A stretch of 64,000 bases of DNA from Gelatoporia subvermispora B (lineage: Eukaryota > Basidiomycota > Agaricomycetes > Polyporales > Gelatoporiaceae), in assembly GCA_000320605.2 (NCBI GenBank), contig KB445810.1, positions 501,722 to 565,721 on the forward strand, in the 5' to 3' direction. Position 1 is the stretch's first letter. Each line of letters begins with the position of its first letter. The notes beneath the pieces were generated by a model. That model was given only the letters and a program-made list of their open reading frames with translations, made no database searches and was not told the origin of the DNA. This document shows, piece by piece, positions 2-57,917 of this stretch. Both the position numbers and the translations under genes were made by a program.

Positions 2-1984
2 GATGGTGGCCTTCAAACAATCTCTGATTTGCACCCACTCTATCAACCGCTGCTATATGTGTTGCTCTTTCCATCTGGACAGCAGGGTTGGCACCCAAAG
101 ATCCCATTGTGTTTGGATCATGCATCGGCAGATGGCATTGCCCCTGATGATGACATTGATCACGACCATCCTGCGCCTGATGTTGATAATTCATCTGATG
201 AGCATTCACGTAAACGCACATTTGTCACACTTCGTGAATATGCGGCATACCATCTGCATACAAGAGAGAATAGGAATGGTCAAGCTCTACATCCCCGCAG
301 TGAACCAGTTAATTTGCATCGTGGTGGCACTCTATTTCAGCAATTCTGTGTTGACAACTGGGCCACAACTGATCAACAACGACTAGGATGGTTAGGCCGT
401 AATCAAAGCAAGCTGCGCACAGATCTATATCGTGGCTTGGCAGATGCGGTGGCGCATGATACAAATCTGGCTACAATTGGCACGTGGACAATTCTCCCTT
501 TGTCATATATTGCTAGAATGCGATGCATGCGAGGATGGTATCAGGACTCGATGGCAATTGTACGGGAGATTGGGCACCCAGACATCTTTCTTACTATGAC
601 CTGTAATCCAAAGTGGAAGGAGATTGAGGATGAGCTTTTGCCTGGACAAACAGCTGCGGATCGGCCGGACTTGGTGGCACGTGTCTTCAAGATGAAGGCT
701 AATGCATTGATCGATGATCTGTTCCAAAAGCACATCTTTGGGCGAACAGTTGCGCGCATCTATACTATTGAATACCAAAAGCGAGGCCTTCCATATATGC
801 ATCTCATCATCTTTCTGCACCATGATGACAAGTTATCAATACCGGAGCGTGTTGATCAGGTTATCTCAGCTGAGATTCCTGACCCAGTAACTGATCCTGC
901 TTTGCATGAGAAAGTGCTGAAATACATGATTCACACTCCTTGCGGTGCTGAAAATCCTACTGCTCCCTGTATGGACAAGGGAAAGTGCACCAAGAACTTT
1001 CCCAAGCCCTTTCGCGAAGCAACTGTGATGTCAGAAGATGCATACACATCTTATATGCGGCGTGATACTGGCCAGGAGTTCACAATCAATGCCCGAGGTC
1101 GAGAGGTCAAGGTCAATAATAGCCATGTGGTCCCTTACTCTCCTTATCTCCTCATGCGGTACGACTGTCACATCAATGTGGAATGCGTCTATTCAATCAA
1201 GTCCATCAAGTATATGCATAAATATATATACAAGGGCCACGACCGCATCTCCATGGGTGTTGGAACAAAGATAGATGAGATCCAGCTTCACTTGGACGCA
1301 CGTTATGTCTCTGCATGCGAGTCTGTATGGCGACTGCTCAAGTTTCGCATGCATGATGAGTTTCCAACAGTTCAGCGGTTGCAAGTGCATCTATCAAATG
1401 AGCACTCTGTCATGTTCCATGAATCAGACAATCCTGTGGAAGCTCTGGCACGAGGCGAAAAGGGGACCACATTGACCGCATTTTTTGATGCCAATTGCAC
1501 TATTCCTGCAGCACGTGCATTGCTATATCAAGATATGCCCAGCCTATTCACCTTCAATAAAACAACACGGAAGTGAAAGTTACGTGCAAATGCACACAAG
1601 ACAGGGGCAATTGGTCGCATCTACTTTGTGCATCCAGCAAGTGGGGAACGCTACTATTTGTGTTTGCTTCTGACTGTTGTACGAGGTCCTACAAGCTTCA
1701 AAGCTGTGCGTACTGTGGGCGGGGTAGTCTTTCCAACATTCAAGCAGGCATGCTTTGCACGCGGCCTTTTGCAAGATGATGGCGAGTGGAAGCAATGTCT
1801 CAGTGAGGCAGCACTGATGGCATCTGGCTTTTAACTGCGGGCCCTCTTTACAAGTATACTCAGAGACTGCAATCCTGTTGAACCATTGGTCCTTTGGGTT
1901 ACCTTTCGCGATCACATATGCAATGATCTTCACCACCGTCTGCAGAGTATGGGTTTTGCAGAACCAACAGAAGCTGGATCTATG
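2..1984 (+). pseudogene. Helitron Rep region, interrupted
   Basis: The frame is open from the first bases of the window, so the N-terminus is missing. It reads the conserved Helitron stretch around HPLYQPLLYVLLFPSG, then the Helitron-like N-terminal and Rep block, including a YTIEYQKRGLPYMHLIIF segment equivalent to the Rep two-His region (here the first His position reads Tyr, M/H follows). Frame 2 meets TGA at 1574-1576, continues recognisably after it (GERYYLCLLLTVVRGPTSF), meets TAA at 1832-1834, and continues again to about 1980. There homology moves to frame 1 and runs into the helicase. The TGA sits where relatives usually have Trp. The pattern is neutral decay of one long ORF, not introns: no GT-AG pair removes these stops cleanly. 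Confidence 0.9.
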
Positions 1985-3597
1985 ACTATGGTCTATTTCT
2001 AATTGAACGGAACCTGCGCACACACAACCAATCCCTTGCCAACTTCCAGCCTATGCCATTACCAGTAATGGAATGGGAGGATGCTCAGCACAATCATCTT
2101 ATTGCTGAGCAACGGGACTTTGACCAAGCTGAACTGGCATTGCAGGCAGCTGAGCAGTCCGAGCAAATGAACACAGAGCAGACAGCAGCAATGGAGGAGA
2201 TTCTGGACTCTGTGCAACACCAACAAGGACGTGTATTCTTCCTCCATGGCCCTGCAGGCACTGGCAAAACCTTTTGCTACACGGCCATTTGTGCTCAGCT
2301 ACGCAGTCAAGGCAAAATTGTGCTATGTGTTGCATCATCTGGGATTGCCGCATTGCTTCTGGATGCAGGTCGCACAGTACATTCCAGGTTCCGTGTCCCT
2401 ATCAACATTCATGAAACCTCCATGTGCAGCATTCGCAAAAATGATCTTCTGGCTGACTTACTACGTCAAACCGACCTTATCATTTGGGATGAAGCACCTA
2501 TGCAGCACCATTACATTGCTGGAGCAGTTGATCGCACACTACGTGATATCCGTGACTCTAACCGTCTATTTGGCGGTATTACTGTTGTGATGGGCGGAGA
2601 CTTTCAGCAAATTTTGCCAGTCATCTTACGTGGTTCACGTGCTCAAATTGTTGGGGCCTCTCTGCCACGGTCTACATGGTGGCCTGGAAATGTCAAGGTA
2701 CTATTCTTACGCAGCAACATGCGCTTGGGACAAAGTGCTGAGGATCGCGCATATGCTCAATGGCTACAAGAAATGGGCAATGGTCAGCATACTGCTGCGG
2801 ATGGCTCTATTACTCTTCCTGCTCATATGAGACTTGCCAACAATTCACTTCAAGGCCTTATCAATACCATTTACCCTGAGCTGGATAAAGACCGCCCACT
2901 TCCCCCTGACGATGACTACTTTCTCAATCGCACCATTCTAAGCTCACGCAATGCTGATGTCCATGACATTAATGCAAAAGTTCTGGAACGCATGCCTGGC
3001 AATGACTTGGTCTTTCATAGTGCAGACTCTGTGGTTGTGGACAAGGACACCAATGCCGAGTATGCACAAGATGCTTACCCACCTGAGCTACTTAGCGCAA
3101 TCAATGCCTCTGCATTACCACTGTCTAAGCTCACCCTCAAAATTGGCTGCCCACTCATGATTTTGCGTAATCTGGATCCTGCTAATGGTGTTTGCAATGG
3201 CACCCATGCTATTCTTACCCGAGCATCCGACCGAGTATTAGAGGTGCGGCTCATTGGAGGCAACCATGCGGGCAAGTTGGTCTTTATTCCACGCATGACC
3301 TGCACTGCTGGAGAAGGAGACACCGGAATACCATATGAGCTCAAGCGACATCAATTCCCAGTTCGCCTGGCATTCGCAATGACGATCAACAAGGCACAAG
3401 GACAATCACTCAAGCAAGTCGGATTAGACCTGCGCGTGCCAGTATTCACACATGGTCAACTTTATGTTGCTCTGTCCCATGTAACATCTGCTGCAAGAAT
3501 AAAGGTGTTGTTTCCTTCAGACTCAGAGTCTACAACTACCAAAAATATTGTATACTCTGAGATTCTATTATGGTGGGTATTTTTGTTCCTTATTTGA
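1984..3597 (+). pseudogene. Helitron PIF1-like DNA helicase region
   Basis: An open frame of more than 500 codons encodes the C-terminal superfamily 1 helicase of the Helitron. Visible motifs in order: Walker A GPAGTGKT near 2254, motif Ia VASSGIAALLL, Walker B IIWDEAPM, the motif III region VVMGGDFQQILPV, later motifs GCPLMILRNLDP and MTINKAQGQSL, and the terminal LYVALSHVTS. It ends with NIVYSEILL, the usual end of Helitron helicases, plus a short extra tail. The Met at 2053 is internal. The true upstream continuation is the Rep frame, from which it is separated by a frameshift near 1975-1985. The helicase part alone looks intact, but it lacks its own initiation context. Confidence 0.92.
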
Positions 3598-41929: not shown

Positions 41930-42182
41930 CGCGGTGGTCGGGTGAGGTCGAGATGGGGGGTTTGCGGATGCAAGGGGTTCATGGCGCGAGGCTGTCTACG
42001 CGCCAGCCATACGCGTCTATGACTCACCCCGCTCACGCCAGTGCACTGGCCGGCGCCTCTTTCCCCGCGTCGCATCCGACTCCGGCGCACGCGACGACGA
42101 CGCGCGCGGCGCTTGCTCAACTCTTCTTCCCGCAACCTCGCGTTCGCCGTCGAGCACAACCGCAACTGGGCCTCCATCTCGA
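41930..42182. promoter_or_regulatory. Divergent upstream region, carrier / sorting nexin
   Basis: 253 bp between divergent starts. GC-rich, no TATA; probably a shared housekeeping-type promoter. Confidence 0.4.
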
Positions 42183-45100
42183 ATGGTTCTGCCGTCGGGC
42201 AGACATGTTCTCGTACTGGCAATAGTTCTAGGCGTCGTTGTGCCCGCAGTCGCGCGAGCACTGTCGTCGCCTATCACGATCCTTCTCCTCTCTCCGATTC
42301 TCGCTCTCCTCTGCGTTGTCGGCTTCTTGGGCCTCAACATCATTCTCGCATATGCTTTAGACAAGACAAGACCAGCTCCAGTCAATCCGCTGCCAGCGGC
42401 CGCCAGACCACTAGCATTCTCCACACCGGCGGCATGGCAGGCAGTCCTGACGCGCTCACAATGGTCACATAAAGCCCCTCAGACGCTGTCCCCTCTATAC
42501 CCAGAGTATCCTGTCGTATCATCAACGCTGAATGATATACTCATTATGATCGTGAGGGATTTTGTCCTGGTGTGGTACAAGGAGATATCATCGTCCCCGT
42601 CATTCCCGACTGCGGTCTCCGCAACGCTGCATAGCTCCTTGGAACGCGTCCTCACTCGCCTCGAGACCATTGACCTCACAGCGCTTCTTGTGAAGCGCAT
42701 TCTTCCGAAGATTACCACGCATATTGAACAATATCGTCAATCCGAAGTGGCCCTTCGTGGCGCAGGTCTAGAGCGCAAGCTCACTCAGTCAGAAGAGTTG
42801 GACCTGCTTCTGGCCGGGAGATATGCTAGTCGAGGGGAGAAGCTGCATCCAGCAGTAGACAATCTATCCTCCACATTCACAAAGCAGGCAGAGGAACAAC
42901 ATCTGAGAGAACTAGTCGACAAGGCGCTTCCTCGCATCTTGCCTGAGAAAGAAGCTCGAAGCCATGCCGTGAAGGTTGTAGTCAAAGAGATCGTCGCTTG
43001 CGCAGTTTTGTATCCTGTCATGGATATGCTGTCGGATCCCGATTTCTGGAACCGCTCGATTGACCAAGTGGTATGTATAGATAGCCTGCATAAGTATCGT
43101 GCTCACTGTATGTCAGGCTGGAGCTGCAATTCGCCAGCAGTATGTGTGTCGAAACTACTCAGCAGACCTATACTCATGTCGATTTGGGCCATCAGGCGAT
43201 TAATCACGAAAGTCAGGAACGTCTTAGAGGCGCAGATACCACGTCCCCCGACTCGTTCACAGACAGAACCCACTGGCACCACTGATCGGATTACTATCCG
43301 CACGGATGCCCGTCATTTTGAGTCGTTCTTGCGCAGTATTAATCGATGTTCCTCATTACTCGATGCAAGAAGGCTGAAAAACGATATCATGGGCGAAATC
43401 CGACGCACTCGCACTTTACTAGGTTAGTATTCAATGTCAAACCACAAATTAGGGTATCATGATGATTCATGCGCACACCAGCTAGCCATGAGAATGAGGA
43501 GTGGATCAACGGCGAGAAGACAGAGGACATTGTGGCTTTTCTGGACAGGCTGTATACAGCCAAACGCAAAGTGGAGAAGCGGATTGCTGTTCTTGGTGGA
43601 GAGACCGATCCAGTGGGTTCTCGGCTGATCATCACCCTGAGAGCAAAATGTTGATGCCAGATCTGCTTAGCGACATTCAACAATCCCAGAGCTCGCAGAT
43701 GATCTTCAGCTGAGCCTCCGAGATGTCCTTCGGAACCCTGGGTCGCTTTCATATCTCATGGAGTTCATGGACCGTCGACATCGATCGCTCCTCGTGCAAT
43801 TTTGGTTGACGGTGGAGAGTTTCAAAAATCCGCTCGACTCGGTAGAATCAGGCAGCTCTGACGAAGAGGATGAGGCAGTAGTGGACCCCACACGCTCGGC
43901 GACACTGAAAGAGGATATTTCCATGCTGAACGAGCTCTACTTCTCTGGCCCATCACTGGATCCCCTACTGAGCTCTATATCCCAGAAATACGTCAACTCG
44001 ATTCGTTCTTTTGGACTAGAAGACGAGGCGGCGGGTCCGGCTTCGGAACGAAGGGTACGGAGGAGTGTCATGCTTGCACAGCGCCAGGTAGAACGTGAGA
44101 TGGAGCAAGACTTTGAAGAGTTCCAGAGGTCAGAGCTGTGGTTTCGTGTCGTTGGTGATTTGGAGACAAATGGCCGAAGAGGCGCGATGGATAATTCCAC
44201 GTTCAATAGACCGGTCTCACAGGTTTCGCATACATCGACGGGCCAGGCACCACCCGGAGGACATGCATCAGTGTCTCGACCCTCTTTTCGTGCCGAGTCC
44301 CTTCCAGTGTTCGGCAACGGCGCAAAGCCTCTGCGCATGGGCCCGGCCTCACCCACGTTCTCGTTGGCGGAGCCAGCCCCAAGCATACTCGCGAGGACGT
44401 CCACTTCCAACCTAGAGGTCCTCATGACCTCGGCTCACGAGGCCCCCTCGTCTACGTCCACACGAGCTCCGCTGTTTGATGATCCTGAAGATACGCAGGG
44501 TGTAAAGGAGCAGTCGCAGCGGATGGAGGCGATCCATGCTGCACTGACGGACATCATCGCCCTATCGAAGGAGCCGGAGGATATGCAAAGCAAGGATATG
44601 TCCGATAGCACCAGCATGCAGAGCGGGAAAGCGCCTTCAGGGAGGAGTGCAAGGCGCGGCGGGAAGGTCTTTGATGATGATGTGGAAGAAGAAGAAGAGG
44701 ATAGGGCGGAGGACGAGGAAGAAGACACGGCACACGGCTCGTTCCAGCTTGCTGGACCGGGTGACCTCCAACTTTCGTACGAGATTGCCCGCCTCACAAC
44801 GAAAATTGAGCAGCTTCAGTCGCAGGACGCGATGCTCGATACGTTGATCAAGAAGGCGGAGCTGACGGGGGACGCACAAGAATTGCGGCTGTTGCGCAAG
44901 TCGAAATCCTCCATGACGAGGGAACTTCGCGAGCTGCGGTTCCAGAAGACGCAGTATGAACAGCAGGAATCTGCTAATCGTATTGTGTCGGATCGCACGA
45001 AGGTCGCAATTGTGAACTCCACGGTGGGCGAGGAAGACGGCAAATCCGTTGTGCGGTACCTCATCGAAGTCCAGCAACTGGCGTCTGATGGCACGTACGG

Positions 45101-46327
45101 ATCGGGGTGGGTTGTTGCGAGACGATATAATGAGTTCTTCAACATGCACAACAAGCTCCGCGAACGCTATGCGCTTGTTCGCAATCTGGACTTCCCTCGC
45201 AAGCAGCTTGTTACCTCGCTATCTAGTAGCTTTGTCGACTCGCGCCGGATGGGACTCGAAAAGTATCTGCAGGTATGACATCATGTGCCGTAATCATGTC
45301 TTACCGCTGATAGCAAACGCATACAGAGCCTCATCACCATTCCCGCGGTGTGCGAGAGCGATGAGCTCCGGACTTTCCTGTCCAGAGATTCGCCCTTCAT
45401 CGCCGCTGTGCCCGATGCTCCTCCTTTGAAAACCCCAACCGCAGGTCCTGCCTTCCCTGGCAAAGGTCTCGTCCGTACGGTGTACAAATCCGTCACAGAC
45501 AGCATCGACGACATGTTCTTTGGACCGTCTATGCTGGATGTCATCATTCAGCGACTAACCACGCAAGCGGCGGAGTTCGCAGGAATCGTCGGAAGTGGTA
45601 TACACGATGAGGATCTAGTCGCGCAAGCTCTGAGAGCTTCAGGGAAGACCACGTCTGAGGAGACCCTGTTACAGCTCTCCGGCGACTTGAAGCCTCTCGA
45701 CGGAGAGACGAGCAGCTCCTCTTTCTCTTCCCCCATCTGCGATTTAATCCTCGCAGTATTCGAATTGAACAAGAAGAACAATTGGCTGCGACGCCAGGCA
45801 ATTGTCATCATCCTGCAGCAAGTGTTCGGCGGGACAATTGAACGGTGTGTATGGATTGCTTTGGACTGTACGAGCACCGGTATAACATTGTGTCAGGAAA
45901 CTTCGTGAGACACTCAAGGCATATCTGGACGAGCCTCACGTGCTCAGCTACATGAACATATTCAAAGACGGTCTATGGCCAGGAGGCCAGCTGAAACCAC
46001 CCAGTCCTCCCCGAACAGCTGAGGAGAAGCTGCACACAAGGGATGAGGCAAATCGCAAGCTATCGGCACTAATGCCAGGTGGGTACTCGGGTTGATAGTC
46101 ATGTTGGCTGAAGGTGACAAAATCTTGCAGACCTGGCCGCTAACATGATTGGGCGGTCAAATGCACGTCGAGGAGCCCGGAGGATATTTGCCGTCCTCCA
46201 GAACCGGCGGCTCAATCAACATATCCTCTACACGATTCTGGATGAGGTGAATAACTCAATCACGCATTCTGCTATCACATGCTGACGGCAACTTCAGGTG
46301 TTCTCTGCTCTGTTCTCTGACTCGTGA
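42183..46327 (+). CDS. Mdm1/SNX13-type sorting nexin (PXA-RGS-PX-nexin C)
   Basis: Nine exons: 42183-43070, 43117-43139, 43196-43422, 43482-43612, 43671-45272, 45327-45844, 45897-46078, 46131-46246, 46298-46327, giving 1238 residues. The N-terminus has two hydrophobic segments (HVLVLAIVLGVVVPAVA, LLLSPILALLCVVGFLGL), then a PXA domain (EYPVVSSTLNDILIMIVRDFV...). An RGS-like domain begins ELADDLQLSLRDVL and continues DRRHRSLLVQFWLTVESF. After a Ser-rich and acidic linker comes a coil (KIEQLQSQDAMLDTL), a PX domain (VARRYNEFFNMHNKLRERY, the phosphoinositide-binding RRYNEF) and a nexin C region (LQQVFGGTIERKL). Such proteins tether ER to the vacuole/lysosome or lipid droplets and handle lipids. 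Complete and well supported. Confidence 0.94.
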
Positions 46328-51022: not shown

Positions 51023-52274
51023 CTACAAGACGTTCACCTTCGGCCACTTGAACTGCGGGCCGATCTGCTGAACGCAAATTGCACCGAGTTTGTGGCCGGC
51101 CTCGACACACTCGTCGATGCTCTTGCCCAAGACGTATGCGCCGAGGAAGCCACCGGCGAATGCGTCGCCCGCACCGTTGGTGTCGACGATCTCCTCGTCC
51201 TTAAGCGGGTGCACGTCGTAGACCTTGGGGCTGTCCGGGTCCGCAGACGAGACGAGCGTGGTGCTCTTCGGGCCGTGCGTGATGATGACGATGCGCGGGC
51301 GGGACGGGTTGGACTTGGGCTGCGTCGCGATCGAGCGCGCGACAGCGGCGAGGTTCGTCTTGTCCGGGTGCCCGGTCGCGCTCGCCCATGCCTCGGCCTC
51401 AGCCTCGTTACCGATGACAATGTCGCAGTAGGGCAGGATCTGCTGGAGCTGTACCGCGAAGAACTGCGGAATGAACGGCGCGGAGAGGTTCAGCGCGAAC
51501 ACCTGCAGGAGCGAGGATCAGCCTGCGGTGCATGACGGCGGGCATGAAAGCGCGTACCTTGCCGGCCTCGGACGACTTCTTGGCGATCTCGAGCGCAGAC
51601 TCCGTGCCGTGGGTGAGGAAGAAGCCCTCGACGTAGAACACGCGCGCGCCGTCGACTAGCGGGGCGACCTCTGGAGAGGACAGGTGCGACTTCTCGAACT
51701 TCTCCGCCGCACGGAGAGTGGTCACCAGGCATCTGCACACCGTTAGTTGCGCCTCGACGCAAGCGAAGAGCCTCAGAGACGTACCGGTGGTGTCCGGTGA
51801 TGACGACGGCGCACGCGCCAGTCTTTTCGCCCTTCTTGACGAGGTAAGCCTGATCAAGCCCCTCGCGCGCGTTCGCAGCCTTGAGCTGCTCCGCGAGCTC
51901 GTCGTCGCCGACACAGCCAGCGTAGACAACGGACTTCGGGGGGAGGACATACTGGCGCAATCTGTCAGGATTTGCATCTCCGGAATGCTCAAATGTAACT
52001 GACCGCCGCTCCGCGCGCCGCGTTCTGCGCTGCACCTCCGGCGACGTAGGTCACCTTGTACTTCTGGACCAGCTCCTCGTAGCTACAGTGCGATGAGACT
52101 ACTGAGAACAATAGCAGATGGACACGGCACGAACATGGGCGCGTGCTTCTCCTCCGCGAGGATGGCATCGTTCGCCTTGAGGTCATACTTCGTGAGAAGC
52201 TCCTCTCCGTTGTAGACCTGCATGTCGAGCAGGGGGTTGCCCATGCAGAACAGCGGGTACGTGTGGGCGGCCAT
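51023..52274 (-). CDS. Adenosine kinase
   Basis: A PfkB-family enzyme that phosphorylates adenosine to AMP and so supports the methyl cycle. It starts at 52274 (AAHTYPLFCMGNPLLDMQV). Exon 1 is 52274-52135 and exon 2 begins at 52082. Seen in order: the substrate-binding GNPLLDM; YVAGGAAQNAARGAA (ribokinase-type GG motif); GCVGDDELAEQL; KTGACAVVITGHHR; FALNLSAPFI; IVIGNEAEAEAWA; and the C-terminal catalytic motif DTNGAGDAFAGGFLGAYV with the base Asp. It ends KWPKVNVL and stop at 51023-51025. About five exons. Length and motif order fit a full, functional eukaryotic adenosine kinase. Confidence 0.95.
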
Positions 52275-52665: not shown

Positions 52666-55178
52666 CTACGTCCCAGCACTATCGCTACTGTGAACCGCTG
52701 TAGTATAACCTACAGTGTTCAACTGTAGAGGTGCCTTGCCCCAGTGCTCGTTTCCGGAAATGAAATCACCTCGAACCACCTTTCCCCGTGCAATGACCCT
52801 ATTCCCCTCCTCGATTTTGACGTATATGCCCTCCAGCGGCCCATCATAATACTGCGAAGGCCGCTGTGTCATGTTGCAAAGTTCGGTGTCCAAGGGCATC
52901 TTTCCCTCGTAAATGACAGGCACAGGAACGATACTCGTACCAGCAAGGATGCCCTCGAGCGCCCTCCTCCCCGCCCAAGTCTGAGTGCTGCGGTCGTACA
53001 TGTCGAAAGCGAGGAAAAAATCTGGGAGCCGCGAATACGGGATAGAATGCGTCGCGACAAGCCACTCGCCGAACAAGACGTAGCGCTGGGCAAAGTGGGG
53101 GTCCCGATTGAGCACCTCGCAGAGCTCTTCGCGATGCCGCTCGAGCCAGGCCCCGAGCTTCTTGAACTGCGCGTGCGACGCCGGGCTGACGTAGTGCGAC
53201 CGATTCTGCACGACGATCTGGGCCCGTCCGCAGATAGCGAGAAGCCCATGTTCGCGCCGTCCACCTTCTCCGTTATCACGACGCGCGCCCCGCTTGCCAC
53301 AGCGGGCAGCCCGCCCACAAGGTCGTCCTCGGTCGCTGAGCCGAGGTTCAGAAGGTGCGCTGTGCGCGGGAACTTGAAGAGCGTCACCGGCGGGGAAAGC
53401 CACGAAACGAGTTCCGCTGCTGCAGCGAAGGAGCGGACGACAGCAATCGCCTTGAAGCCCTCATCCACTGTCGGGCGCACGAACATCCCATGCATCTGCG
53501 CAACCGCGCTGCGGACACGTCCGCCGGGCGGCAGCGTCGGGTGTCCCGCCCGGTTCTGCGCTCGGGACGTGCAGAGCTGCTCGTCGTAGTCGAACCAGAC
53601 ACAGACGGGTGCCTTGGCCCAATGCGCGAGGCTCAGCCACTCGCGCCTCTCCGTGCGCGACGCATTGCACCTGTCGAACACCATTCGTCCGTGCGCGGGC
53701 GCGCGCCCTATCGCACGCTCACACGCGGCGCGGCTGCCGGATTCGTCCTGGGAGATGTATGTCCAGCCTCGCGGATCTCTCGTTATCAAAGCTCGAGACA
53801 GCCAGGACTTGCCCGAGCCTGGAAGGCCCACAAGGACAATCAAGTCGCAACCGGGGTCAAGGCTGCCGTCGACTTGCAACGAGCAGGGCGCAGGCTCTTG
53901 CACGACGTCGAGGAGGACCGAACGGCGCTTCCAGATCGCGCTGCAGTACTTGCTAACGAACGCTTCTTGCTGTTCTGTCTCGATACTGCCAGGCCGGATC
54001 GCACGAAGAGAAGAGATGGCGTCATTCGAGGACATCGTCGGCTGCACCAGGTCAAATCGGGGTGGCGCAAAGCCAAATGCGGCGAGATAGCACGCCGCGA
54101 CGGTCCCTGCGCGCCCCTTGCCGCCGCCGCAGTGCACCAAAAGCGGGAGGTTGCCCTCATCCTGCATGAGGCGGAAGATAAGGTCGACCTGCTCGATGCT
54201 TGGCGGGCAGTAGTTCGGCACAGGCAGGAAGGTGTGTCGTACGCCTGTCCCGACGAACCAGCTCGCGTCCAGCGGCGTCTCTTCAGTCAGGGTCACGACA
54301 TGCCTGATCCCGACGTGCGGCGAGGCGAGGGCCCGGATGTCCATGCCGTTGCGCGGGGTCGACATGAGCGCAAATTGGAAGGGCACCAACCACCGGAAGA
54401 AGCGCGGGAGCCTGTACATGCCCCCCGCGTCCCTGGCTTCAGGATCCGGGAAGGGAACGTATCTGGCTTCTCCAGAAGGAACGCGCAGCGTCGGCGGTGA
54501 CGTACCCGTCTCAGCAAGACGAACCCGCAGCTCTGAGGACCACGGCGCGAGCAGAGCCTCCAAAGCTTCGTCAGGCAACTCCGCGCACTCTGCCTCCGCG
54601 AAGACAGCCCCCCACTCCGTCTCGAGCGTCGCCTCCACGATGTGCCGCACGCAGTACTCCCGCGCCTGCGCGTCCTCGCATCGTGCATATGCCGCGGCGA
54701 ACGCGAGCATCGCGCGCTTCGGCGTGCCCGCCTTGCGCGCTGCGTCGCCCAGGCGGAGGAAGCCGCGCTCGGAAGTTGGGGCCGCAGCGCACAACGCGGC
54801 CGCGACCTCGCCCGCGCGTGTGTACTCGCCGAACAGCTGCAGGGTAAGCGCGAGGTGGTCAAGCAGCGCAGGGTTGGGGGTCTCCGGGAGCACGGGCTCA
54901 CTGGGGAGGAGCGCGCCGAGACCTTTGGGCACGTCGTGCTGGTCCGCGGCGGACAGGGTGATATGGAAGTGCTTTGGAGGCAGACCTAGCCGCTTGCGAA
55001 GCACCTGCCCGGCGGCCCAGACGATGACGACAAAGAAAACATTGGATTTTGGATAGCCTCCAAGTCCGAGGGCGAGGATGTGCTGCGTGTCTGCGTGCTC
55101 GGCTTCCGCGCGGACGCGGGCTTGGTTGGGGAGAGCGCGCAACTCGTCTTTGGTGACTACTGTGATGTGATACGGCAC
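52666..55178 (-). CDS. Multidomain RNA end-repair enzyme: 2H + DSP + kinase + ligase
   Basis: An almost intronless gene of about 837 codons. Residues 1-90: a 2H phosphoesterase-like domain with two H-x-T motifs, YHITVV (His4) and FHITLS (His72). About 105-220: helical, TPR-like. About 255-420: a dual-specificity phosphatase fold with HCGGGKGRAG (Cys350, Arg356). About 443-600: a P-loop polynucleotide-kinase-like domain, VGLPGSGKS (451-458) then FDRCNASRTERREW. From about 603: an RNA ligase, with nucleotidyl-accepting Lys638 in EKVDGANMGF, then EWLVATHSIPYSRLPDFF and FLAFDMYD, EGIYVKIEEG and RGKVVR, the usual motifs I, III/IIIa, IV and V. The ligase frame slips by one nucleotide at the GGGCCC run, 53220-53225. 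Together the domains could open cyclic phosphates, trim end phosphates, phosphorylate 5'-OH and seal RNA. The function is inferred from domains. Confidence 0.85.
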
Positions 55179-57917
55179 CGTCGTAGGCGAAAACTGTACT
55201 GGCCGAGTTGCGTTGCGGGATTGGTATGATTAAAGGGTCGTATTCGCTAGGTCGTTGATGCGAGGCCCTACGAGAGCCAGGTATCCGTATGTGAAGACAA
55301 GCGCCATTCTCTAGGGTGAGGATATCACAAATTTGCGACTTGCTCTGTCCCGATGTGCAGGGAGCAATCTTCTGCGGAAATTATTCATGACTGTGGGGGG
55401 GCAGAATGGGAGAGGACTGTCAAGCAGACGAGTCAGACATGCGGTACCGGGATGAGTGACGTTGCGAGAGGCGCGACGCGACGGTGGCTGGGCGACGCGT
55501 CCCTCCCACCAACTCATGCTCGCTCCACCACTATCCCACTATCTCACTATCACCAGCTGCACACCAGAGTGGTTCCGCACCTTCGACGACGCCTCTAACT
55601 CGTTCTGTGCCAGCTTCTTGTGCGCAGCACCTGAAATTCGTGTGGAAGACATTTGCTAAATCACGGATTCGCGTACGAGCAAAGTTCAGAATCACACTCG
55701 ACTCTCCGCTCTGCAACGCTAGGCCATCCACGGCTCTCTCTGCGATTTCTACGCGGGGCCTCCCTGCTGGCTTGCTGGTCTTTCACATCTTCACCTCATC
55801 GCACGCTTCGGCCGCCCTACCACCCATTTTTGCACTCGCGTGTCCATTGCAACGTGTTCGGCCCCGAATTTGCACTCCCGACTGCGCGCCGGCTTCTCAG
55901 TGCTCTCCAGGCGTCAGTGCCCAACTTTGGAGTCTCAGCCTTCGGCCATCTCCTACCCACGGGCAACAGCGGACGCTGGCCATCTCATCGCGGGCGCTGG
56001 TCGATGATAGATTGCGGCAGCGTTCTTAATCTGTGTCATCCGCATCTTGCATCTCGCATCTCGACCATGCCCCGTGTTCCAAGTCTGAGGCTCTGGGTTT
56101 GACGCGGTCCTGGGATCCTGGCTCAGCGGGCGGTCGCCAGGGTCACCTGTTGAGCATCCGTGGATGCTGTTGAAACAGCGGCGCGGGAGGGCGTCGAATT
56201 GCTTTTTGCACGCCGGTCACTTGTTCGCAGCTTATGTATCTGCGAAGTCACGCGATTAAGGCCACAGGCTCGCAAGGACCGCAGGAACGCTCGCAGGGTT
56301 TGCCCTGCTGCGGATGGACGGTCCTTCCAGCTTTCTGGAAACGCAGAGGAGTTTGTGAGGGCGTTGTCGATGAATTTGAACGTGCCGTCGCTCCGCCGCG
56401 GGCCTGCAGGCTGTTTGTTGACTGCATCGCTATACTGCTGTCAGACTACGATAGCTGCAGTATATGGGTGCAAGAACTCCAGCTCGATTATAGTCGGACC
56501 TTGTCAGAAGCAGTTGTGACAGACGATTGGCTATGCTTATTTGAGAGGACCGCATCCAAGAGGGTGAGGTAGTTGCCTCACGGGGTACAATCGTGCACCG
56601 GATATTGACAATTCAGTCAGCGGTTCCGTAGAGTGATCGGCGGGCACAATGAAGCGGCGAAATTAGCTTTGGCGTGGTCGCGGACGGAGCATTTTGTGCC
56701 ATGTAAGCATACCCTTTCCCCATATTTCGTTGCGATGACTGACCGAGGTACAGGAGTGCTGCGAGTCATATACATAGTCCTGGGTGGTTCCGAGGTTCTC
56801 TCGCTGGTGTGAATCCAGGCCCGGGGACGGGCTCGGACCGCGAGGGACAACGATTTGCGTGTGGTGTTTCCGGAATGCGTCGCCAGGAGCTGGTGCGGGA
56901 GAATGTACGCAGCATGCCGGGGCGAACTCCGTTGGGCTGAGCGAGATACGGGAGGGGATCTGCCTGGGGCAGCGCGGCTCTGCGTGGTCGCATCCGAGCA
57001 GCGACGTCACTTGCTTGTCAGCAGCGATCAGATAGCGGCGACCAGACGGACGCGGGAGACGAGTGCACCGGACTCGCAAAGCCTAGAATGGATGCCCTGG
57101 CACGCTCACCGTCATCGCCTCCCGTATCAAGGGCACGAAGCACGATGTGTTCCTGGCCTCCTTCTGGCTCCCACCTGCCTAATGCACACGGTCCATATGG
57201 CTCGATTAAGATGCGCAAAGCGCGGAGGACGCGCTGCAGCGTGCTACCACAGTCGTGTGGAATTGACTAGTAGCAGCGAAGTCTCCGCCTGAAATTTCTC
57301 CAGCGGTCCAGCGGCTCCGTGGCTCCCCGTGGGTTGGCGAAAGTTTGATACCCACCGTGTCCGGCGACGGCTGTCCAGGCGCAGCGGCGATGATGCAGCA
57401 CGGCAGCTCCCCGCGAGCAACGGGACCAAATGACACCAGTTGCAAGTGTTAACGACAGAGTCTGGCAAGCGTCTGGGATCGCGTCTGGCCAGAGTCTGCG
57501 CTGCGGGCGCCCAGCGAAACAGGCGGCGCTCATTGGCGGGGCATATCTGAGTTGCCGAAATAGGAGGTGGCGGGTACCAGAAAAGGCAATGGCTCCGCGC
57601 CGACTGCGGTGTAGTTCGCCCAGCGCAGGACCATCGCTGCCCGCATTCCCGTCTCTTTTATCGTCACTGTCCCTCGCTAAGGCCGTTTTCCTCTCCTTCT
57701 CCTCGTCGTGTCCAGCGGCGTCAAGACACCCTCCCATCGAGCGCGCACGCCTCGAGGCAAGCCTTCCCAACTCGTGGCGTACACGCCTCAAAGCCCACGC
57801 ATCTTCCGTACCCTGCGCCTAACTCGTCCAAGCATTTTCAAGCTCGCCGCCCCTCCCTTGCTCGTCTTCAACCACCGAACTCGCCGTCGCTAGCCCGACC
57901 GGCCCCCTCTGTCGCGT
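55179..57917. other. 2.7-kb interval without a supportable gene
   Basis: Several overlapping open frames on both strands (for example 55484-56029 and 56160-56572, plus; 57267-57791, minus) but no domain, no consistent exon chain and no tRNA. A small palindrome (AGCATCC, GT, GGATGCT) lies near 56152-56167. The right end, CT-rich from about 57640, is probably the kinase promoter and leader. Confidence 0.4.

Follow-up and report, generated by a model that had tools for sequence, protein, structure and literature searches.

Analysis of a 64,000-nucleotide stretch of contig KB445810.1 from Gelatoporia subvermispora B (assembly GCA_000320605.2; hereafter the window, to whose numbering all positions refer) identified a minus-strand gene that belongs, with a probability of roughly 0.7, to the 'Swiss Army Knife' RNA repair proteins (reportedly described by Burroughs and Aravind in 2016) as their Agaricomycete orthologue, and whose product is predicted from its sequence to heal and seal broken RNA. 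The domains of the gene, their order, the conservation of their catalytic residues and the coexistence of the gene with Trl1 and Tpt1 were observed directly.

Domain architecture

The gene region runs from an ATG at 55307 to the stop of the second of two frames (52666–55307), as delimited by tblastn with the homologues P0002 (Jaapia argillacea) and P0003 (Hermanssonia centrifuga). The first, a long minus-strand frame of 769 amino acids (52869–55178), starts at a GTG and overlaps the second (52666–53403). A preliminary description, made from the letters of the sequence, had proposed a 2H phosphoesterase, a dual-specificity phosphatase (DSP), a kinase and a ligase in that order, with their catalytic motifs visible; Pfam profiles recovered all four in the same order, and every catalytic residue checked was present. 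With a helical linker resembling tetratricopeptide repeats (TPR-like), the full arrangement is 2H phosphoesterase, TPR-like linker, DSP/PTP phosphatase, Pnkp-type kinase and Rnl2-type ligase.

The 2H domain (54936–55286) matched 2H-SAK (PF22547) over profile positions 1–124 (E 3.9e-22) and carries both HxT motifs, each reading HIT; in the first frame by itself the match covers residues 3–81 (E 4e-19, 69.5 bits against a cut-off of 27, the value for all four profiles). An entry of BFVD named Swiss Army Knife 2H domain also matched this part (E 2.3e-5). The linker (54510–54872) is followed by the phosphatase domain (53955–54407), which matched PTP-SAK (PF22784) over its entire length (positions 1–153 of 153, E 2.3e-58; first-frame residues 258–408, E 2e-58, 197 bits) and contains an HCx5R P-loop, HCGGGKGR (54111–54134), as in phosphatases of the DUSP23 type; its closest matches, by sequence and by fold, were DUSP23 and archaeal PTPs. 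The kinase domain (53538–53843) matched AAA_33 (PF13671; E 5.8e-11; first-frame residues 446–547, E 6e-11, 43.3 bits), and mammalian PNKP and two fungal kinases were matched in the PDB, the Walker A motif and catalytic Asp aligning with those of PNKP. The ligase domain begins in the first frame with motif I, EKVDGANMG (53223–53285; residues 632–652; RNA_ligase, PF09414, positions 2–22, E 0.0087, by itself below the cut-off) and continues in the second (52777–53223; residues 61–209; positions 21–170, E 2.5e-23, 83.5 bits). Both the nucleotidyl Lys motif and the Rnl2 fold are present, and matches included T4 Rnl2 (15% identity) and the Naegleria RNA ligase.

The NCBIfam PNK-3'Pase model matched with an E of 3.9e-11 but scored 42 bits, far below its cut-off of 502.8; RNA ligase families of PHROGs matched the second frame (best E 4e-9), while what matched the first was weak or unrelated; and a PADLOC search returned no match. 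By fold, the 2H and TPR-like part came closest in BFVD to two giant-virus proteins, A0A2H4UUE0 and A0A3G4ZM97, of 649 and 859 amino acids; the longer is about the length of a full four-domain protein, and the shorter is named as a dual specificity phosphatase.

Conservation in homologues

Homologues were analysed as the best 120 of 498 proteins found at E up to 1e-3 (7,997 scored). They are 52–60% identical to the query, a number of them carry the name 'ATP dependent DNA ligase' or simply 'hypothetical protein', and the named ones, judged by genus, we take to be Agaricomycetes. A search for the same architecture in fungi had been proposed, and among 53 of the 120, picked for spread, the 2H-SAK, PTP-SAK, AAA_33 and RNA_ligase domains were found together in one protein in all 53. 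The catalytic residues are likewise conserved: the phosphatase His and Cys are present in 120/120 homologues and its Arg in 119 (a gap in one), each position of the P-loop in 118 to 120, with its Lys in all, and the kinase Walker Lys, the Asp of its QD motif and the ligase Lys in every homologue. The first and second His of the 2H domain are found in 111 and 117 homologues, respectively, and the HxT/S pair is complete in 103; the tested sites of all four domains are complete in 102.

Within the G. subvermispora genome the gene is the sole match to RNA_ligase and also the sole match to 2H-SAK, and the 2H-SAK profile matched none of 14 well-known prokaryote genomes used as profile controls. Family membership, as predicted from sequence, thus rests on the margin of the scores and the combination of domains and not on any single match. 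At least 12 loci in prokaryote genomes match only the kinase domain, with or without a short flanking stretch (two peptide patterns); L026 and L027, on large viral contigs, are free-standing RNA ligases of 237 amino acids, 31% identical to the fungal ligase domain; of two further scans of viral contigs, one gave five short kinase pieces and the other no match; and 15 of 50,697 phage records matched, none covering more than 80% of the query.

The sequence comparisons indicate a well-conserved multidomain repair gene of an already named family, and the architecture is not new. The preliminary description suggested that multidomain RNA repair proteins had been proposed before, and in substance this agrees with the names that Pfam gives two domains of this gene, 2H-SAK and PTP-SAK, after 'Swiss Army Knife' proteins, and with PMC7824862, where Burroughs and Aravind 2016 are given as the source of a 'Swiss-army-knife' phosphatase family. 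PMC7765460 also lists a 'HAD domain in Swiss Army Knife RNA repair proteins'. Among the matches listed in the literature searches, none dealt with the fungal protein or with the structures of the two fungal kinases.

Relation to other RNA repair systems

A classic Trl1, with its ligase, kinase and cyclic phosphodiesterase domains in that order (PF09511, PF08303, PF08302), was found elsewhere in the genome (G000:C12), together with Tpt1/KptA matches on C4; RtcB had no match in the genome. Because the genome has both Trl1 and Tpt1, the repair gene is taken to encode a separate enzyme, and nothing seen suggests a role for it as the tRNA splicing ligase. Trl1 leaves a 2'-phosphate, which Tpt1 removes. 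Like Trl1, the predicted protein would heal and seal with ligase, kinase and phosphodiesterase parts, but these belong to other domain families and stand in the reverse order, and Trl1 has no DSP. The reverse order and the additional cysteine phosphatase had been claimed in the preliminary description, and both claims hold. No Trl1 domain was found in the studied protein at E up to 1.

With the Swiss Army Knife RNA repair proteins the gene shares the 2H and DSP families, a kinase and an ATP-dependent RNA ligase in one gene; it differs in that this copy is broken by a stop and a shift of frame, and in the Asn noted at the acid position of the DSP. The pairing of a phosphatase with a Pnkp-type kinase is as in T4 Pnkp (acting with an RNA ligase) and mammalian PNKP, whose phosphatase is of the HAD type and not, as here, a cysteine phosphatase of the DSP type. 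DUSP23 (VHZ) has an Asp in the IPD loop where the repair gene has Asn, and lacks the fusion to RNA repair domains. T4 RNA ligase 2 (Rnl2), unlike the ligase of the repair gene, is not fused to healing domains.

Proposed repair pathway

The activities, the RNA substrate and the sequence of steps given below are all inferred from the domains present. Cleavage by an RNase would produce ends with a 2',3'-cyclic phosphate and a 5'-OH, the first of which would be opened by the 2H domain. The DSP domain would then remove the remaining 2'(3')-phosphate to give a free diol, the Pnkp-type kinase would phosphorylate the 5'-OH, and the Rnl2-type ligase would undergo adenylylation and then seal the ends, while the TPR-like linker may position the 2H domain or bind a partner. 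A comparable division of labour is described for phages in PMC7824862, according to which the ATP-grasp ligases require 5'-phosphate and 3'-OH ends, 2H enzymes likely resolve cyclic ends, linear phosphatases act next and kinases phosphorylate 5' ends. In the fungal protein the DSP would take the position that a HAD phosphatase has in the published accounts and would remove the 2'- or 3'-phosphate left by the 2H domain.

Findings that weigh against the assignment

Several findings, set out here and in the next section, speak against this assignment or a part of it. Three of the profiles also matched the prokaryote control genomes, namely RNA_ligase in 5/14, PTP-SAK in 8/14 (above the cut-off in six) and AAA_33 in all 14, and PTP-SAK matched four weaker places in the G. 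subvermispora genome (best 45.5 bits versus 201 for this gene), three of which exceed the cut-off alone or with their neighbours. A PTP-SAK score over the cut-off is therefore not specific by itself. In searches of solved structures with the 2H domain, the best 50 rows of each PDB list consisted of TPR and other mostly helical chains. The HxT/S pair is incomplete in 17/120 homologues, one of them a partial protein, so that the 2H step may be dispensable, as judged from these sequences; others of the 17 may be faulty gene models. The 17 include P0075, P0091, P0093, P0101, P0103, P0104 and P0105 among others, several from Mycena, and they keep the tested residues of phosphatase, kinase and ligase.

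The phosphatase lacks the usual general acid. Removal of phosphate from a ribose hydroxyl normally requires an acid, and all five printed PDB alignments (DUSP23 twice, 25xa, ShufPTP and Tk-PTP) show an Asp at the general-acid position in the IPD loop, whereas that position (54213–54215) is Asn in this copy and in 116/120 homologues, Asp in three and a gap in one. This argues against a simple DSP step of phosphate removal. The proton might come from a neighbouring hydroxyl or another residue, or the substrate might be an anhydride such as a 5'-triphosphate. For this step alone we lean slightly towards the supply of a proton from the hydroxyl or another residue, because the kinase implies 5'-OH ends.

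An RNA 5'-triphosphatase, as raised in the preliminary description, or another phosphoanhydride enzyme, whose good leaving group would make a general acid unnecessary and which would let the protein also process 5'-triphosphate ends, would account for an Asn so widely conserved while Cys and Arg are kept (120 and 119 homologues), and the invariant P-loop Lys would suit a polyanionic substrate. The RNA 5'-triphosphatase group of the DSP superfamily has the P-loop signature HCTHGxNR, however, from which HCGGGKGR differs; DUSP23 and archaeal PTPs match the domain best in both sequence and fold, and the kinase in the same protein suggests 5'-OH ends. RNA triphosphatase structures were not among the best 60 of 108 PDB rows, which is not evidence of their absence. 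We consider this alternative improbable. Far less probable still is a DNA ligase: a number of homologue records bear that name ('ATP dependent DNA ligase'), but the match to the RNA_ligase profile, the matches to T4 Rnl2 and the Naegleria RNA ligase, and the fusion to a 2H domain and a Pnkp-type kinase all point to RNA.

Interruptions of the reading frame

In the assembly the gene is interrupted twice, by a stop and by a one-base shift, so that, as sequenced, this copy would not be expected to yield the complete protein. The preliminary description had taken 52666–55178 as one polypeptide, which did not survive: the interval is the union of the two overlapping frames and not a single open frame. 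Its domains and their order stood; what it overlooked was that the frame is broken, that the gene starts further upstream, that a TPR-like linker is present and that the genome has a classic tRNA ligase elsewhere. The amino-terminal segment of the homologues lies upstream of 55178, from the ATG at 55307, and an in-frame TAA (55230–55232, read as 55232–55230), evident from tblastn, the 2H-SAK profile and the sequence itself, cuts it off from the rest of the gene; the profile spans the whole domain across this TAA. Within the ligase, at approximately 53226, tblastn and the alignment of homologues place the one-base shift: the first frame has KVDGANMGFSLSAD and the second RAQIVVQNRSH, and homologues keep both sides in one frame, for example SADRTQIVVQNRSH, where this copy has SAD and RAQIVVQNRSH in two.

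Splicing was considered at both sites. No GT occurs from 55270 to the TAA. Among the splice sites listed, four GT-AG pairs would excise the TAA with the frame kept; the mildest (55271–55194, 78 bases) would take out a stretch retained in the homologues, and with two of these pairs the first HIT motif would be lost as well. An intron at the frame shift was rejected because the parts on either side adjoin as in the homologues, with no conserved residue missing between them. No slippery site for programmed frameshifting was found in the right register on inspection by eye.

Away from the two sites conservation is high, the gene agreeing with the consensus in 231 of 236 columns (those at least 95% identical in the 120 homologues); a comparable test on 30 homologues gave scores of 0.88 to 1.0. 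A tree of 41 rows, built from the first-frame part of this gene and 40 homologues out of the 120, gives it a branch of 0.59 against a median of 0.29, roughly double and a further point against the assignment; the value equals that of P0001 and lies below the longest, 0.69, and the letter make-up of this copy deviates. A second copy was sought in the genome (37.7 Mb, 52 contigs), which holds a single DNA match to the gene. The chaperonin (32 matches) and HSP70 (34 matches) genes of the same genome served as a coarse control for errors, in which 11 of 27 stop-bearing pieces were read, mostly chosen for a length leaving little room for introns. Ten could be read in frame: in eight the sole stop lies no more than three codons from the edge of the match, and the other two look like the run-in to an intron. 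Small as it is, the control gives no indication that sound genes commonly carry stray errors. The eleventh piece, the HSP70 copy L048 (G000:C29:118600–119450), is degenerate, with several frame changes, and is an evident pseudogene. Among the control matches, those on the small contig C51, which lie outside the pieces read, overlap at frame changes, so that errors or pseudogenes may exist elsewhere in the assembly.

The lesions may be true damage, a recent disabling of the allele in this strain that would leave RNA repair to Trl1, and we give this an even chance. Two separate interruptions within one gene, the single DNA match and the presence of Trl1 and Tpt1 elsewhere in the genome are in its favour, as is the long branch, though other homologues have branches equal or longer; other signs of decay, however, are few. 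An intact gene in the fungus, with both interruptions introduced by assembly error, falls a little short of even odds. Conservation of the gene around the two sites supports it, as does the failure of tblastn to meet any further stop or shift in the gene, while the lack of a stray stop in the ten in-frame control pieces speaks against it.

Neighbouring genes

An adenosine-kinase-like PfkB gene on the same strand (51023–52274), with several introns by eye and PfkB matched in one frame (E 4.6e-35), starts some 390 bases past the repair gene's 3' end. Farther away on the plus strand are a sorting-nexin-like gene with PXA, RGS and PX domains in neighbouring frames (41946–45278) and a PIF1-like helicase frame of 556 amino acids (1927–3597).

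Significance

If the family works as read here, mushrooms would have an RNA-end repair kit in one protein, independent of the 2'-phosphate of Trl1 and Tpt1, and RNA damage and RNA-cleaving toxins would become a testable topic in these fungi. Doubtful as yet is the further proposal of a second complete RNA repair enzyme beside Trl1 whose cysteine phosphatase dispenses with the usual general acid in acting on RNA ends, whether aided by the neighbouring ribose hydroxyl on a 2'-phosphate or by using 5'-triphosphates as substrate; an acid-less phosphatase of this kind would, if true, add a new type of step to the healing of RNA ends. What the phosphatase acts on can be tested directly through the Asn found almost universally at the acid position.
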